This document shows, one piece after another, positions 6,662 through 24,097 of a DNA stretch of 24,793 bases. The position numbers and the translations under genes were made by a program. The stretch's first letter is position 1. Each line of letters begins with the position of its first letter. The notes below the pieces were generated by a model, which saw only the letters and a list, made by a program, of their open reading frames with translations, was not told the DNA's origin and ran no database searches. The stretch lies in the NCBI RefSeq assembly GCF_000003605.2, contig NW_003121911.1, forward strand, positions 1,560,811 through 1,585,603. Direction: 5' to 3'. The stretch comes from Saccoglossus kowalevskii. Taxonomy: Eukaryota; Hemichordata; Enteropneusta; Harrimaniidae.

Positions 6662-6919
6662 TTATGATGGGGGAAAAAATAGAGAGAATGTAGCATATAT
6701 AGGAAGTTGTAGTCCATCCAATGTCAAGATTTCACTTCGACTTGTTTTGTTTCCTAGTCCAAATCGCTTTGTTAATGAGCCAGTTGTGAATGTGTAGATT
6801 TGCCCCTTGATGATGCACTGCACACGAATGCTGTAGCGGACTTCACGATCTTGTCTGAGTGAGAAAGTCTGGCGTTCACAGGCACGAAATGACAAAGTTG
6901 GATCATTGGGTCTAAGTCT
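6662..6919 (-). CDS. BTBD16: BTBD16 terminal exon 17
   Basis: Residues 597-681 plus TAA at 6664-6662, starting RLRPNDPTLSFRACERQTFS and ending LQLPIYATFSLFFPPS. The acceptor is ATTACCTTGCAG. The last residues match the human ending IPIYASFAFIFPAS closely (recalled), which supports both the stop and the family. Confidence 0.92.
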   Translation of the reverse strand, partial: RLRPNDPTLSFRACERQTFSLRQDREVRYSIRVQCIIKGQIYTFTTGSLTKRFGLGNKTSRSEILTLDGLQLPIYATFSLFFPPS

Positions 6920-9900
6920 CTGCAAGGTAATTTAATTTAATGTTCATTATATCCTTTTTTTTTTTTAACACAAACAGAAAGAGAGAGAGAGCAAGAGAGA
7001 ATCTCTGGAAATTTGATAATTTTAGTTCACAGAATCTCTGGTTTACTAATGTGCACTGAAGGACAAGAACGGCACATGTACAGATCCAGTTTTTTTGTTA
7101 TAGTCCTGATCAGATAAGACAGCATTCTCTTCAACTTTGGCTGTGTGTGATGCGGGCAGAAGAATATACTCTAACTAATACTACTGAGTGAGCAATCATG
7201 CTGCGAGAGAGGATATTTAGCACATATACACTGGTATATACCGGTATTACCAGAATATCAAGAACATTTGGACTATTAGAAGCCATACATCAACAACAAA
7301 TCTTATTATGGTAGTCTTTGCACTGTATTAATAACCTAACATTGTCTTCTGTTTAAGGGGGCATGATGGTATATGACAAAATACAAACTATTGTTGATGC
7401 AACACATTAACTAGAGCTGTAATTGTATACAATTTGTAGAGTGAATTCTATCCTACCTGCATATAGAATTGATATGTATCTGCTCCAGTGCCAACTCTAC
7501 ATGCTTTTAACTCAAAATGAAATCCATGCACAGAGAGGACATCAGCATGGTACTGTGGTTCCTGTCAAGTAAGAGACAAATAAGAGAATTTTTAATTTAT
7601 TGTAATTTGTGCACATTCATTTAAAGTTTGTTATATTACCGGTACTATAAATCGCTGTAAAAATAACTGAACAGTACAGTTTAGTTACATACCTGATCAA
7701 TCACAAATCCGGCTCTGATCGCGTCCTTGTCGAATTTCATCAACAGTGGCATGTCACCACCACCTTGTAGCTGTTATGATTAGAATGAATGGTTATGAAA
7801 CATTAGTCATTGAAGCTTATTAACAAGAATATTCTTGGGTGCGATATCAGTGTTCATAAATCATCATTTCTACCAGTCTTACTACTCTATTTCAATGTGT
7901 TTTTTTGTTTTTATTCTAAAATTCTGACAAATAAACTTTTTAAAAATTACGTGGACAGGAAAATGTACCTGTTTAAATAATCAAAAATTATTTATATACT
8001 CACCGCTTGGTAATGCATATTTAAGGTTCGTAACACCCATTGTTGGGGTATAATGTTCATTTTCAACATATCTTCCAATGGTCTGGCTGCAAATCAGAGA
8101 ACATTAGTATGACATTAATTTCTACAAACAGTGTAAGGATGAGCGTATTACCGCTGTACCAGTATATTAGCTTTTTATTTCAATATTTTTGTGCCAAGGA
8201 AAAAGTTCCCATTGACAGACATTGAATTGGTGACACACTTACACAGGATCAACAGTATTTTTGAGTTCAACCCCTAGGTAAGATGTAAATACATTCTGTC
8301 AATCTGATTAAAATCTGATGTAAGTATAGGTAGGCTCCTATTTTTGTTTATTTAATTTTTACATTTTTTTTTTATTAGTTTTGTTTATTTATGAATATTT
8401 TTCGCGTAGTTATGGTGACTAATAGCGATCGAGATACAATATACAAAAAACTTAATAACGGCAAGTAAAACCAATAAAAAATGTATAAATTAAAAAATAT
8501 AAAAATACTAAACCATCACATTTACTAGCAAGACTGACTTACTTTCTAGTACTCCATGTAGTCTTAGTGTCATAAACAAACATGCATATTGTTGGCCTTC
8601 TTCTCGTTCTATGTAAGCACTCGTCCTTGGCAAACTGTAACACAAATATATGAAAATAATAGCAACAATTGTCTACAGGGTCTGAACTTTAATTCCATAT
8701 ATCATAATGAAATTTCCCATAAAAAGTGTTGCAGAGTGAGATTTTTTTTAATGTTTTTGTTGCTGATAAGATAGTATACAGGTTTTATACTACAACATAA
8801 ACTCCCCATACACAACAAGGTAAGGAATTAACAAGCTATTTTACACAGAGCCAATGAGTCAAGAACCCTTAATTTCTTTATTTTTTAAATACAGTAGTGA
8901 ATAAACAACATCGTCACAGATGATGAAAGTCTTGAAAATGAAGCTGATTCAACTGACTGAATAGTGGCAGTATTGGTAAGGTTATACCCAGCTGAGTACT
9001 TGTTATAAATGAGTAATTTTTAAAACCATTGGTTTTCTCAAAAATTCAAATGATAAATCTAATGCTTGGTAATTCTGGTATCAAAGTTAATAAAACAATA
9101 ATAATAACTTATTATTATTCAACAAGTCCATCTGAGGGTACTGCATGGTAAAGACAAAACATAAAATACATTGCACAGATAGACAAAAACTGGGAAACTA
9201 ATAAAAAAGAAAATATCTGTGCAAATAGCATCTTTTCAAGTTTGAGGCGATTACATTCATGGGTGTCTGTGACCCCACACCTTGACATAAATTCTAATTG
9301 TAATACAAACCTACAACTTTGCACTTACCTATTAAAGTATGTGATAACTGTACTCATGGAAGGCATCAACTGAATCTCAGGATGATTTTGCAAAAATACC
9401 CAATAACACAAAACTTTGTAAATAGAATATTCATTGAATGTGAAAAGTCTATAAGAAAAAATACAAAAATGTGGAATTAATACTTTACAACTAAAACAAA
9501 ATCTTCTAGCTTGGAAATACACAATAAGTAGGATGCAAGATGTATGTACATGTATACAATGATGATGTTCACACTACTAGTACGCCCTCTAGTGTTCATT
9601 TTTACACCTTTTGTTTTTTTTAGTGTCCTTGCTGTTTACAATATTTCACAAGATAAATTAAATAGCAAAATTTATTCACCTGCTAGATTTGATAATTTTC
9701 TGTAACAGTTCTAAAGGAAGCTCACGTAATTGGATCTGAACTGAAAGCTGTGAATTAAAAGACATGAATAGATTAGATGCAATCACACTAAAAACTAATT
9801 TCCTGCAAGATCTGACACATAAATTCCATACTTATAAACTAGAGAAAAATATTTTAGTTCTCATGGCTATGACCCAATGTATGATCCTCTCCAAATATCT

Positions 9901-12900
9901 GACAACATATTGTTTTCACTTTAGGAAATCTTAGATGATTTCGTGGATTTATCAACGTCTAAATGCTTTCTAATTTTCTAATCTCAATAATGCTACACAC
10001 TCAAGTACATGGATACTTACATGAGGAACAAGATTGAGTTCCAACCATCTTTCACATGCATTAGTAACTAAACCAACACCATACTGAAAATTTAAAATAA
10101 AATACAGGTTAGAAAACCTAAAAAATGCTGCTCTGATGAAAGAATATTACCGGTACAGATTTTTTCACAAATTCTCAGGGTGGCAAACACTTTGCGGAAT
10201 TTGTTTCCCACATTTTTCGGTGGCTCATTCTTGTATGCATTTTGGGTTAATGTCTCATTAGTCTCAATACTATGAGGTTATTACGAGGATACCGAAAAGT
10301 ATGCACGAAGAAAGTACAGGGGAGTATCAACCAATGCGCAGTGGAGGTATCCTCGTAATAACCTTATTATTATACATCTTTTCCTCCAAAGGATACATCA
10401 TGGGAATGCCGAAATCTAAAAAGTTTAGAACAGAATCAGCGAACTTCTTTGTGTGGAATCCAGTCAAACCCTAGTGGAAGCCATGTTTGTTCTTATTATT
10501 AGAGGATGCTTACGCGCAGGATCATTCTATATTTGGAATTTGCATTTCCTAATATGGTAGGATGAAAATACCCTGTAAATTACTGCAAAATTACGACACA
10601 CTGTAACTTATGGCGTTACGGTGACAGATGTATAATGATATTTATTATTTCAGTGTCAAGGGTTAGTAATACTGAACAATCAAGAAGTGTCTAAGTACAT
10701 GCCAAGTATATCACATTTCCTTCACACAAAACAAATGTCCTTGTTTTTAGGGATTTATTTCAAAGGTTGTATTTTTAAGAGAATGTGCTTCACATGGCCA
10801 CAGTTCAGTTTATTTTGTGAGTTACAGAAGTGCTAAGATAAAAAAGACATTGTATTGATGATAACCTAAACGCATTGGAGGACTGCCTCTATCCTCTATA
10901 ACTGATGTAATATGTGAGATGTACCTTCATTGCTGAATGGTGGTATGAACATACAGAATTAGCACTGATGCTGCTCATCATTACTTCAGTACATCTGAAA
11001 AAACAATAAAAATCACAAATCTAGCAGCCATGTAATAATACCAAAATTCAATATTTCATTAAATATTCACATTTCAAGTCTTTGCACGCATCAGTTAAAA
11101 ACGTGTGTCAGTTTTTTTGTATTTGCAGGTTTTTGTCAAAATCTAGAAAAAATCACAAAAAATCATAATATAACATAAATAAAATGTCAAAAAACAAAAT
11201 TGTCAAGAATAGTGTTCACGGCCTTTGTTTATGTGTTCTATTATCATACATGACATGCATTGTCTTGTTACGTGTGTACTCTGGATTTGTCTTTTGTTTT
11301 CTTTTGAATTTTAAATTGTAACAATGCTCTAGTTTTAATCTTGGAAATAACATGTATTTTTTGCACAACCATTATAAACCAGGGAGCATGAAATGAATTA
11401 TCTGGACAACACTTTTATTCTTTCGTCAATTGATTTTTTCTTTGCAGAACTTAAACTAGACTCAAAACGATCAATTATTTGTTTGTAACATAATTGCTAT
11501 TGATCATTCCCATTATAGGGTGAGGTAGGCTTTCAGCACTCCAAAGGAATCAATTGACTATATTGATGTTGCTCCGATAGTAGTAAATGGAAGTTACAAG
11601 ATTACTTGACAGTCTTACATGTCATTTTCGGTATAGTGCTTTTCTCTACACGTTACATCATCAGTATGTTACCTATATGCTAAGAATTGGCCTTTATTCA
11701 TAGCACAAGCTTTACAGACAGTTTGTTCCATTATTCAGAAAGAACAGTGTAATTTATTAATAGTTTGATGCTTGTATCTTACTTTTTTTCCAACTCTGTA
11801 AACTTCAAGGCACTGGCAGCAGCAAGGACTCCAACCACATCAACATGGTCTACAATAATCTCATCATGATACAGATTACCAAGGGCAATAGCAAAAGCTG
11901 TTGAAATAAACAATACATATTACCAAGGGCAATAGCAAAAGCTGTTGAAATAAACAATACAGATTACCAAGGGCAATGGCAAAAGCTGTTGAAATAAACA
12001 ATACATATTACCAAGGGCAATAACAAAAGCTGTTGAAATAAACAATACAGATTACCAAGGGCAATAGCAAAAGCTGTTGAAATAAACAATACATATTACC
12101 AAGGGCAATAGCAAAAGCTGTTGAAATAAACAATACAGATTACCAAGGGCAATGGCAAAAGCTGTTGAAATAAACAATACATATTACCAAGGGCAATAGC
12201 AAAAGCTGTTGAAATAAACAATACAGATTACGAAGGGCAATAACAAAAGCTGTTGAAATAAACAATACAGATTACCAAGGGCAATAGCAAAAGCTGTTGA
12301 AATAAACAATACAGATTACCAAGGGCAATGGCAAAAGCTGTTGAAATAAACAATACAGATTACCAAGGGCAATGGCAAAAGCTGTTGAAATAAACAATAC
12401 AGATTACCAAGGGCAATGGCAAAAGCTGTTGAAATAAACAATACAGATTACCAAGGGCAATAGCAAAAGCTGTTGAAATAAACAATACAGATTACGAAGG
12501 GCAATAACAAAAGCTGTTGAAATAAACAATACAGATTACCAAGGGCAATAGCAAAAGCTGTTGAAATAAACAATACAGATTACCAAGGGCAATAACAAAA
12601 GCTGTTGAAATAAACAATACAGATTACCAAGGGCAATAACAAAAGCTGTTGACACAAACAATAGATTAGGGCAATAGCAAAAGCTGTTGAAATAAACAAT
12701 ACAGATTACCAAGGGCAATAACAAAAGCTGTTGAAATAAACAATACAGATTACCAAAGGCAATAACAAAAGCTGTTGAAATAAACAATACAGATTACCAA
12801 GGGCAATAACAAAAGCTGTTGAAATAAACAATACAGATTACCAAGGGCAATGGCAAAAGCTGTTGAAATAAACAATACANNNNNNNNNNNNNNNNNNNNN

Positions 12901-15900
12901 NNNNNNNNNNNNNNNNNNNNNNNNNNNNNNNNNNNNNNNNNNNNNNNNNNNNNNNNNNNNNNNNNNNNNNNNNNNNNNNNNNNNNNNNNNNNNNNNNNNN
13001 NNNNNNNNNNNNNNNNNNNNNNNNNNNNNNNNNNNNNNNNNNNNNNNNNNNNNNNNNNNNNNNNNNNNNNNNNNNNNNAAAATGCTATAGGCACAAATAA
13101 AGCAAATTACCAAAGAATACCAAGCAAGTATTGTAGATACAAATGATATAGATTTTCACATGGTTGCTACAAAAACAGAAAAAACAAAACATGCATAAAA
13201 TACAAATTAGATATTGTGTTTGCTTATATTTTATACTTACAATGTTTGGTTACTAGAGAGTCCTTAATTTTCAACTTTAGTCTCAGCATATTTTTCGTTC
13301 TAGCTTCCATGATATGCGCTGAATCGTCTAAACTCTTTCTAGCAATTTTGTCCTCCTCAATAGTATCTGTTGTACACAGCCTTCTCGTCACTTCTTTGTA
13401 GTCTGTACTGTAGAAGCCACTTTTATTGATGTATTCATCTAATGTAGAGGCCATGGGATCTCTGTAATAGCGCGCTTCTGTTGGACCACTCTCTGCTTTT
13501 TGCAGCAACATACCCAGTACTTGTGACTTCTGTAGATATGGTTTGTGTAACTCCCAGTTTGTACCCAAACAACTCAGTAGAACATCTAGTAAATCAAATA
13601 TACGAGGACAATAAAGTTTTTTGCTTGATCGGGGTTTCATTTATGTTCCATATTTGAACAAATCACATTATGTAATAAAACTAATACTAGGTTTAAGATA
13701 ATAATGAGAAGAACATCCATGGTATTTTGTGGTTCAGTGATGCTTGTGTTAATCACAGCAAACAGCAGTTCAAGATGGTGGCCATCTGCGAAGTTCAGCT
13801 GGATATATTAGTTAACTGTTATGTTTGTGTATTTGGATATAAAGTAATATTGTTCATTCTGACAGATATACTTGAAATAAAAATGTTACAGCCGGAATAT
13901 GGGTATTTGTGCTCTTGCACAACAATCAAGTTCTCCTGCACTCAGGTGTGCCAATAATTGGTTAGTACAATGTAATAGATAATCACATCGGCCGATGCAT
14001 AGCCTTATTAATATACATCTTTTCCCTCTTGTAGTAATAATTTAAAGAGAGATAACAGCAAAAAAAATCAGTGAAAAGCATTTTGTGTTGTGCAGTTGTT
14101 TGTGTCAAGTCATGGTATTTAATTACCATCACAAGCTGATAGCGCTTCTATGTCTGAAGTAAACAAAGGAAAGTGTTTCAGTGTGACAGAAACATGATGC
14201 ACAATTTCCAAATAAGGAAGACATTCAAACACTTTCCCACACACTTGTACATCCTTTTACAGACAAATAATGTATAATAAATTCCTTCATTTATGTATGA
14301 AATGCATAAAAAGAGATTGAGTAAGGGTATTCACTAACCTGGTCCAAGTGGACTTTTATTGTTGACATGCTTAGAATGATAATGAAATATATCAATAGGT
14401 GTTGGTGTCCTGGCTGTTGGTGGCCTGTATGTATTCAATGGCAGTGGGCTGTAAGTAATACATGTAAAATAGAAATTTATAAAATATTCACATTATTTCG
14501 AAGTATTCTTTCTATTTCTACATGTACATGACAAATGAAGTAAATGCAACTATGGATACTAAAGAACATTATCATGGACATGCAACTGCAGTTTTTCTTT
14601 GATGTGGTATGCAATGTCTTAGAATTGGAATTTAATTTGTTAAATACCATTTTTATACACATGGATAGGCATTGTCATTTTTCTATAAATATACTGTTAC
14701 TCTAGCCTGACAAGTAATAAATGCAAAAAATTTTGCAGGGAAATGCATGCTCAATAGAGCATGTTGGTTGCACACTAGAATGTTTTTTATTTGAACTATG
14801 TTTGCTGCAATTGCCTGTCCTTTCAATACAATATGTATACTCTGATATAAAAATTCAGTAATTTTGAAGTATGTTGCTGCAATTGCTCATGCTTGTTCTT
14901 CAGAGTAATTTTGAAATACAAAATTGTGATGTTGTGACTCAGAAACACACAAAACATCAAAGAAACCAGTGAGCTTCAAGTTTAACTTCAGGTTTATTCT
15001 GCCATTTTCAGTTACACCAACATATCAATACACTTGGGTGATTAGGTGACATCTAACACCATTACAAAAGTATGTATTCTGACTCATGCAATAAAGTAGT
15101 CACAAAAAACGTGAAAATTACCTTGGGAGTTTTCTTGTAGTTCTGGCTGGAGCTGATGCAGGCAGTGGTGGCTGGGTTGGTGTTTTGGATCTTGCTTCAC
15201 GGATCCATTCTTGACTACTTAGAGGTCGTGTGTGGCCTTCAGTCGACGGAAACTCATACGGTTTTTGTGCATCAAGATTAACAATGGTACTTGGATGTTC
15301 ACCTAAAGCAATAAAGCATATTTTGTAATACAATGTATATGTTATAGAATATCAAAACCAAAACCAAAAGTTTACAAGAAGCACAACACTTTTCCTCTAA
15401 AAAAAAAGTGATATTTTTGACTTCTTGTGAAAAACCACAAGTCCGATTGCTTTGATATTACATATATATAGGTACTACATGTGGACCTCTCTCAGATTTG
15501 TTCATTTCGTGATGATATCTTTAATCCTCTAATTTTAGTGAATATTTTTGTCATTTTTGGTAAAAAGTGATATTTTCGACTTCTTATTGAAAACCGCAAG
15601 TCTGATTGCATTGATATTACATATATACGTACTACATGTAGACCTCTCTCACATTTGTTCATTTTGTGATGATATCTTCAATTCTCTAATTTTGAGAATT
15701 TTTTTTGTCATTTTTGGTAAAAAGCCGACAGGCTGTTTGTTTGAAAAAAAACATGTCGTTTATTCACTGATATCAATTCCAACAGATCTTACTTTGACAT
15801 CGATAATTCACTTCCGCATTGCGCTACCAGAAAGTCTTCTGGAATTTTCGAAGAATTGCGTCAGTACAACACAGCATTCTGATTGGTTAAAAACAGACTT

Positions 15901-18900
15901 GACCAATTATAGGTCAAAGGACGTTGTTGCAGGTCAAATCATGCAAATACATGATTGTGGAAAGTGCATGCTTTTCATCAAGAGTTTGCAAACAATCGAA
16001 CTCATTTGTCAGTGGAGATAATGATGACGACTTTGACTGTGTTCTGACAGATCTTGTAAGACGTAATATCCCCCTCAATCTGTCACAAGGTCAATTAAAA
16101 TTTTCATTTGCAAACTTTTCCGAGGGGGGTGCTCTGGTAAGCGCCCACCCCTAAAAAATCATGATTTTCTGTATTGAGGACTCTAGGCGCTAACACGATC
16201 GAGTACGGTACATTAATAAAAAAAACATATAATGCACATTGAAAAGTGCTATAAATTACATAAAATATGCTTGTTCAGTTTTACCGTATGTATTTTACAG
16301 TACATATAATTATGTAAAACCTTTATTAACATATATTAACCAAAAAAGAAATGTCACAATATTTTATGGTGTTAATAAAAAAATTCTATTCTATTCTAAA
16401 TATAATACATGACAATTATAGATGCCTTCTAGTATTTCCGCTATCCTAATATGTGTTAATTATAAATACATGAGTGTTTTCTACATGGGTATCTATCTAT
16501 TTATAGTGTGTATTTAATCAAAATACACTGACCATTAATCATTAATAAATTATTTAAAACATTTATTGTTGTAAACACTGAAAATAGGCAACATGTCTGT
16601 ATGAAAAAGTTCAGTAAGAAAATGCATGAGTCCAATGAAATGTAAATACTGTCAGATGTATTTTTTATATGAAAACAGTGTTCTCCCTGAACAGGACAAC
16701 GGGGCCGCATTGCACCCATACAATTTTTGAGTGCTTCCTTGCTGTACCAAGTAGTATAATGATTTATATCATTTTTTTTTTAATTCTTGTTTTTTAGTTA
16801 AAACTCAGAATTTGAAAGAAAATTAGAAAATTAGCACAATTGTTGCACTTTCAAATAAAAGATTGTAACTGCAATTCTACGCATACATTTCACATCACAA
16901 CAAGCATCAAATATATTTTCTTGATGTCTTCTTGCTAACAAAATTCTGGGGAGAACACTGTATGAAAATAAGAACTACTCCTGTAAAATCTGTATTAGAA
17001 GCCGTGGCTTCTATTAAAATGGTACAATACAACAGAAGGAATGCAGATTCTATTAGAGCATCTAAACATACAAGATAAGCTGGTTCTCAATTGTTTAAAA
17101 GGAATGGGTGTGACTTACTAGTATTAGGGATGTGGTTTCTAATAGAGATTTTATGGTATACAGTATGTACATACCTGATATGATCCTCATAAGTGTTTTA
17201 TTATATGGAACATGTAATGATCTCAATGCTTGTGATGTGCCCAACAAATCACCACCTAAAGATTCTGGTAATCTCCATCGATTAGTGCCACCTACTTGGT
17301 TACGTATACGGCATCTTGGAGATGAGGGAAACTAAAAATAAAAATAAAACTTTTGTTATTGTATGCTGCCTTACATTATAATATTGAAGGTGCTTTACAA
17401 GTAGGAAAAAGCCTTTTACCAATATGCATTGTAATTCATAATTTCTGTGAAAAAAAAACACTAACTTAATTGATGGATGTTACATCACTATTTAAAGGTT
17501 GCCATGGCCGCATATGTTTAAATTTTGTGTTTCAAATGAAGCGACCTAACGATTGAAATAGCTCTGCTGCCTTTGTAGAGTGTCTTTCTCAGAATAAAGT
17601 TGTACGATGAGCTATTTAATAACTATTTGCCATGGTTATTAGTGTTCCCACAATGTTTTTGCTGTATTACTACCATGGTAGTTTATTTGGTTAATGCCAT
17701 GGCAATTAAAATTATTTTATCTTGTTACAAAACGTTTATATCAATATATCAAGTATAAAAGCAATTAGTTTTCAAGAAGAGGAAAAAAATGTAACTGGCA
17801 GGCGGTCAACAACGACAGACAATTGTCTACATGAACAGCCCGCCCTGTAGTAGAGTTATAAAACACCTTTGACCCATGTGCGTATAGTATGTGGGACCAT
17901 GTTGAATGCCCATGACTGTGTCGACTTACAACTCTTTTAAGTGTTGCAGTGATCACACATTTTTTAGTAAATGTTGCACATGGACCCATGGCACTCGTAA
18001 AAGGTTGGATAGTATTACAGTTGGTGAAAAATCTTTGAAACAGGTGGCTGAACAGGTGTCCTATTCAGCCACAAGTGCTGATCGTGTATCAGTTTCCATA
18101 GACACTAATGTTTCTTTTCAATCTGTACTTATAGTCATTCATCTAGGCTGGGTTATTAAAACATTGTTTTGCATGTCTGCAGAAAATACATACCAGTGAT
18201 AGAGGAGAATATTGAACAAATAAATTGATACATGTATCTACAACGACTGTCCAGCCATGACTGGCATAGATTTATCCACTTTATACTCAATGATTTATGA
18301 GTGAGCAATAAACAAAACCACTGAAGTACCACTGAAGCAGGGAAATAAACTAGTTAGTAAACAAACATGGAATAATTTAGAAGACTGGTACCATTGACGT
18401 GGAACATGATAACCCAGTTAAGTTTAACATTTTAGTTGTTGCCATCATAGAAACTTTGTTATACAATCTATAAACACTCAGTGAGAATTTGATGCACTTT
18501 AACATAGTGTATTAGTTATATATTATAAATAGAAAACCATTTGTGATATGCTTTTATCTCTATAGGAGAATGTTAATATTAAAATAAACACCAAAGCAAA
18601 ATACATGTATTACATTTTTGGATGGGAATTACCTAATGTGACTAACAAGATGGTGAATTTACATTTATATACTGTAAAATACTTTATTTTAGCTGGAATT
18701 AATTTTCACTGTAAAGACTTTTTTGGGTGTTTTGTATGGAATTTATTTTCACTGATTTTTGACAAGTTGAATGTAAAATAAAGGAAAGAAGGTATATTCG
18801 CTGGATTTTATTTTCACTGAATCATTCATTCAGCGAAAATAGCAAAAAATAAAGTATTCTACAGTATTATAATTAAAACCTTGGCCATCGTTTTATATTT

Positions 18901-23181: not shown

Positions 23182-24000
23182 GCGACAGAGTTACTATTTG
23201 ATTACTGGTATTCTCCCTAATAAATACGGACGAAACAATTATAACTATTTATATATATATATATATATTTCACCATATGTGACCAAAGGGATTCTTTTTA
23301 GATATAATGAGAACTTTTTACCCTGGCTCAATAATCACCATATCATGGGTGATTGACCTGAGTGGTGTTTTGTTGCGAAAAGTAGTTTAATGACTACATA
23401 CTTTTAATCTGGGCTTTGACTAATACAAAACTGAAAAGAAAACAACGATTAGTTTACAAACAATGCTTTTCACTGGGATTTGTATTCATTTGATTCAACC
23501 CTTTTTTTGGAAAACACAATTAAGTAACTGTAAATCGCAATCTAAATACAGCCGACAAAAAAAAAAAAAAAACGATTTATGCGTTGTGCGTGGTCATTTG
23601 TACTACAACCGGAAAGACTAATTATTTCTGTGCCCTGTACGAACTCTATATAGATTTTGCTACACACGATTTTCGCTCAAATTTGGTCCATAACTGAAAC
23701 ACAGAGCATAAAGTGCAATGTTATTAAATTACTGGTTTGTAGAACTAGCTAGCCTGAGGGTTGCCCGTTGGAAAACCGACATGTAGACCTGTAGATGATG
23801 CAAAAAAAAAAGTTGTCGTGGATGAGGACAAGCAAATTTTACACAAAGTCTGCATAATTTAAATGTAAAAAAATTGGAAGAATATTTATGCGACAAAATT
23901 CCTCCAGCACAACAGATATCAAACGAGTCCATCCGACATTGACAGTGGGGCGGCACCGCCGCCTCTGGTTGACAAGCAAATTATCTACTAAAAATACATT

Positions 24001-24097
24001 TTCGCTTGGATTCAGTGAAAATAAATTCCATACAAAACACCCGAAAAACCTTTTCAGTGAAAATTAATTCCAGCTAAAAATAAAGTATTTTACAGTA
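24001..24097. mobile_element. Truncated relative of the 18670 MITE, inverted
   Basis: Reversed, it reads TACTGTAAAATACTTTATTT, then AGCTGGAATTAATTTTCACT and TTTTGTATGGAATTTATTTT. This follows the left half of the element at 18670 almost base for base. The other terminal repeat is missing. Confidence 0.75.

Follow-up and report, generated by a model that had tools for sequence, protein, structure and literature searches.

The stretch of DNA analysed here (the window) comprises 24,793 nt of the hemichordate Saccoglossus kowalevskii and carries exons of BTBD16 on its minus strand. A minisatellite whose units span the boundary between intron 7 and exon 8 lies directly 5' of exon 8. The numbers "exon 7" and "exon 8" are those of the earlier note on this sequence and are kept as labels. 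The features of the locus are as follows.

13241–13640, minus strand: preceding exon (exon 7), start of the BTB domain; 13640 is a nominal 5' limit
13235–13240, minus strand: intron 7 donor, GTAAGT
13095–13174, minus strand: sequence resembling degenerate units, 5' of the gap, including the end of a pyrimidine tract with TAG
12880–13078, no strand: assembly gap of 199 N within intron 7, adjoining the array
11898–12879, minus strand: array of 22 decoy acceptors, each with 29 nt of exon start after it (one unit shortened to 38 bp); the real acceptor is at 11898
11897–11869, minus strand: first 29 nt of exon 8, the genuine copy with which the repeated exon parts end
11783–11897, minus strand: exon 8 of BTBD16, coding and 115 nt long; frame from exon 7, Pfam match
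11777–11782, minus strand: intron 8 donor, GTAAGA
10925–10994, minus strand: next in-frame exon, acceptor TTTTTTCAG, donor GTACAT; frame read by eye
6665–6931, minus strand: last coding exon, BTBD16 C-terminal domain, PF21059 at 4.3e-24

The last coding exon matched the BTBD16_C domain (PF21059), while exon 7 matched BTB_BTBDG (PF23998) with an E-value of 4e-07 that reached 1e-20 when exons 7 and 8 were joined at CATT/CTTTTGC. These matches confirm the identification of the gene as BTBD16 in the earlier note. The best PF23998 stretch of the joined exons placed residues 93–169 on domain positions 40–114 and crossed the junction at residue 133/134; the joined exons scored 74.7 bits, whereas splicing to the nearest decoy would give a product of 47.6 bits. 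On its own, the exon 8 peptide matched PF23998 positions 79–114 from its first residue (1.5e-07). Because the match runs across the junction and the exon peptide aligns from residue one, the start of exon 8 used in the earlier note is well supported. The alignment sets 77 residues on 75 domain positions and accordingly reveals no large insert in exons 7–8. Eight PF23998 matches were found, of which two were above the cut-off, and both are exons of BTBD16. As the array and the exon 7 flank each occur at one place in the assembly (572,110,611 bases in 4830 contigs), a paralogue or a second allele was rejected.

Tandem Repeats Finder (TRF), run on the window, reported a repeat at 11869–12879 with a period of 44, 23.1 copies, 95% matches and a score of 1819. 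Read on the minus strand, it consists of 22 tandem units directly 5' of exon 8, 21 of 44 bp and one of 38 bp. They bring the number of CAACAG acceptors to 23, the final one being the real exon's own, in agreement with the proposal of about 22 near-perfect decoys directly upstream. Each full unit contains the 29-nt exon start and the 15-nt intron-side acceptor TGTTTATTTCAACAG, and thus includes the intron-exon boundary; the acceptor is exact in 21 of the 22 units, and every unit has a single AG. As had been claimed, the unit therefore combines a 3' splice site of the gene itself with the opening 29 nt of the exon. The predicted spacing of a TAAT before each AG was also found, its second A lying 22 nt before the G in 21 of 22 units and 20 nt before it in the 38-bp unit. 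The motif GGTAAT, a weak-looking donor-like site, is present in 19 of the 22 units and also inside the real exon, as coding sequence. Sixteen of the 102 14-mers of exon 8 recur in the window, as against none of 387 for exon 7, and a chance match was therefore rejected.

The units are near-identical and bear signs of turnover. Compared with the real exon, the 29-nt exon part has no difference in 4 of the 21 full units, one in 13 and two in 4. Five positions vary among these full units, all within the 29 exon-derived nucleotides and none within the 15 intron-derived ones, which gives selection on the decoy acceptors no clear support ((29/44)^5 = 0.12); the 38-bp unit, whose intron part does carry changes, was excluded from this count. 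Unit types alternate near the exon end of the array, as read by eye.

At its other end the array runs into the 199-N assembly gap, a feature absent from the earlier note, so that 22 units is a minimum. Beyond the gap, the sequence at 13095–13174 resembles degenerate units. Its local score of 24.5 was reached by 8 of 1000 dinucleotide shuffles, and when the rest of the window was scored in 286 overlapping stretches, the best reached 20.0 on the minus strand and 21.0 on the plus strand. It includes a strong pyrimidine tract ending in TAG, the AG of which ends at 13167. Given this unit-like sequence, the array may, on modest support, once have reached 13095–13174. The neighbouring gap, together with an assembly in which 84,197 of 180,000 bases were N across 18 sampled stretches of 10 kb, although some of these N may stand for withheld sequence, could suggest that the array itself, or its length, is an artefact of assembly. 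The variants at five positions, the single 38-bp unit and the degenerate sequence past the gap argue against this explanation, which we regard as highly improbable.

The 23 acceptors offer little in their upstream sequence by which the real one could be told apart. Over the 60 nt upstream, 20 of the 22 decoys were compared with the real site: two were identical, 17 differed by one to four bases, and one, standing behind the short unit, was out of register. The downstream context differs, in that the full 115-nt exon beside the GTAAGA donor is found only at the last unit. The main differences between the acceptors are how far they lie from the downstream donor and which sequence follows nucleotide 29. 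RNA structure hiding the decoys was rejected, as a folded stretch of 476 nt, which contained the exon together with 7 of the 22 decoys, was no more structured than shuffled sequences (z = -0.00). Were the 23 sites used equally, simple arithmetic would give one right product in 23, and the array could then be damaging the gene, with most splicing failing and BTBD16 heading for loss in this lineage. We consider this very unlikely, since the subset of BTBD16 exons that was read is open, and both exon 7 and the last exon score above the Pfam cut-off.

When exon 7 was joined to each decoy, a premature stop appeared in 22 of 22 products, lying 5' of the exon 8 donor by 67–967 nt. Only the last acceptor thus preserves the frame. 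Under the 50–55 nt rule for nonsense-mediated decay, all 22 decoy products would qualify as targets. One frame-keeping path involves GGTAAT as a donor: each unit would then add 18 nt, and the frame is kept with one to three such pieces. Each unit might on this basis be an 18-nt exon (CAG/CTTTTGCTATTGCCCTTG/GTAATC), whose inclusion would lengthen the BTB domain in frame by six residues (AFAIAL). The presence of the motif in most units would suit such a scheme. Against it, the site looks weak by eye and occurs in the real exon as coding sequence, and exons as short as 18 nt are difficult to define. Use of this putative donor is suggested by sequence alone, and we judge the scheme extremely improbable.

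Most of the observations are probably best explained if the array is a tolerated minisatellite, of the type called "mirage" in lancelets, in a minisatellite-rich genome. A 44-bp stretch over the intron 7/exon 8 boundary would have been tandemly duplicated by replication slippage or unequal exchange, and the same turnover, to judge from the unit types, would keep the units alike. As regards the correct mRNA, the array would be intronic. Since intron 7 (about 1343 nt, counting the gap at its drawn length) and intron 8 (about 788 nt) are both long, exon 8 would be recognised as a unit, and the acceptor nearest to the downstream donor would probably pair with that donor. In transcripts spliced to a decoy, the reading frame would close before exon 8 ends, and such transcripts would presumably undergo nonsense-mediated decay. 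Two things would make the array tolerable: the preference of exon definition for the acceptor nearest to the donor, and the stops in decoy transcripts. A neutral array of this kind gives GGTAAT, although present in 19 units, no role.

An excerpt of PMC9225289 is consistent with such a choice: in exon definition with long flanking introns, preference goes to the splice sites that lie nearest to each other across the exon. According to the same excerpt, the preference for the upstream 3' site is described as reduced with long introns, not as always reversed (PMC9225289), so the proximity rule gives no guarantee that the last site is chosen. From exon-definition proximity and the distinct downstream context, we infer that the last acceptor is the one used most.

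The earlier note knew of no described system of this kind, and on this point it was wrong. Published excerpts on lancelets describe minisatellites spanning intron-exon boundaries, termed mirages, in globin, Adh, troponin C and PGBD5 genes (PMC3087553, PMC3902484). The kind is thus already known, and the BTBD16 array is a real, very regular further case. Like the lancelet examples, as far as these excerpts go (Adh3, BflGb6, BflGb9, troponin C and PGBD5), it consists of tandem repeats across such a boundary, and in BflGb6, as in BTBD16, the repeat joins the 3' end of an intron to the 5' part of an exon (PMC3087553). Splice signals are kept by many lancelet units (excerpts of PMC3087553 and PMC3902484), as in the BTBD16 array. 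The CAG, present in all 22 BTBD16 decoys, is retained in many but not all lancelet repeats in those excerpts, and the PGBD5 repeats are described as imperfect in the excerpt that also cites troponin C (PMC3902484). The two systems differ in size: the BTBD16 array has at least 22 units of 44 bp, compared with six and three units in two BflGb6 haplotypes, and with unit lengths of 150–160 bp in BflGb6 and 10–72 bp in Adh3 (excerpt of PMC3087553). The lancelet mirages also sit in genes other than BTBD16. Among the literature matches listed, no mirage outside lancelets was found, which is weak evidence of absence.

More distant likenesses are also found. Intron gain by tandem duplication (Rogers 1989; Gao and Lynch 2009, both as cited in the excerpt of PMC3087553) shares the tandem duplication of a unit that contains both an AG and a GT-like site. 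That process makes a new intron position, whereas the BTBD16 array shows none. In the ABCA7 intronic VNTR, the unit is reportedly not a copy of an acceptor plus exon start, unlike that of BTBD16. By its partial description, this VNTR shares an intronic tandem repeat bearing on splicing (PMC5954066), and intronic motifs and minisatellites tied to multiple splicing decisions in C. elegans resemble the present case by title (PMC4039745), though the listed entry makes no mention of repeats that copy splice sites.

The lancelet data also bear on whether the array could have a function. A share of the pre-mRNAs could use decoys and be destroyed, in which case array length would set the amount of BTBD16 protein and vary between individuals. 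The stops in every decoy product and the close match of the decoys' upstream sequences to that of the real site are compatible with such a throttle on splicing, as is the variation of mirage length between lancelet haplotypes (excerpt of PMC3087553). RT-PCR in lancelets, according to the same excerpt, suggests that regular splicing is undisturbed, which speaks against it, and we hold it to be unlikely. That the array is a dial, the number of its self-contained decoys setting the share of BTBD16 transcripts that either are lost through stops or receive 18-nt microexons in frame, seems quite unlikely; if true, minisatellite length would tune a gene through competition between 3' splice sites. 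Somatic instability has been reported for the lancelet Adh3 mirage (excerpt of PMC3087553).

With at least 23 near-identical acceptors competing in cis, the array is a natural test of the choice among equal splice sites, and could separate exon definition from a first-come choice or one of the site nearest to the branch point. It would also extend mirages beyond lancelets, its host not being one.

Minisatellites were surveyed in two samples of the assembly. In 40 stretches around kinase exons (64,040 bases, 1,516 of them N; exon-like partial matches picked by hand out of 143; three of the 40, L032, L034 and L040, contain an internal stop), TRF arrays with a period of at least 15 were present in 11, and seven had at least 2.5 copies. 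By the stricter definition (period of at least 15, at least 2.5 copies), arrays were found in 6 of the 18 sampled 10-kb stretches. Repeated exon 14-mers were found in none of the 40 kinase-exon stretches, compared with the 16 of 102 in BTBD16 exon 8. The sample therefore does not show mirages to be common in this genome, where, on these 40 stretches, they may be rare. An array lay within 60 nt of the exon match in two of the 40 (L047 and L066); both look intronic when read and were rejected as mirages. In L066, a 22-bp minisatellite of 13 copies (154–442) starts about 8 nt into the intron past the donor of a kinase-like exon, and in L047 a 43-bp minisatellite (1076–1228) starts about 40 nt past the likely donor of such an exon. 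In the 10-kb sample, a 32-bp minisatellite at 2012–4969 of L024 has 93 copies.

Other repeats were noted within the window itself. Positions 15403–15724 hold two copies of a 157-bp tandem unit belonging to a large dispersed family, with at least 155 matches in the assembly as judged from 40 scored of 3361 candidates; a like array occurs in L025 and L033. Open frames on opposite strands at 18566–18781 and 23839–24063 share FFGCFVWNLFSL and are perhaps a dispersed repeat.

The mitochondrial contig of the assembly (C4830; L011 and L012) was also read; its features speak against a lancelet and may fit a hemichordate. COX1 is encoded on the other strand from ND1 and COX2, and ND2 precedes ND1, the genes other than COX1 being named by eye; we take the gene order to be otherwise deuterostome-like. 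Aligned with the best COX1 chain in the PDB, the nine ATA codons of COX1 fall on Ile (5), Val (2), Leu (1) and Met (1), and TGA falls on Trp in 6 of 8 cases.
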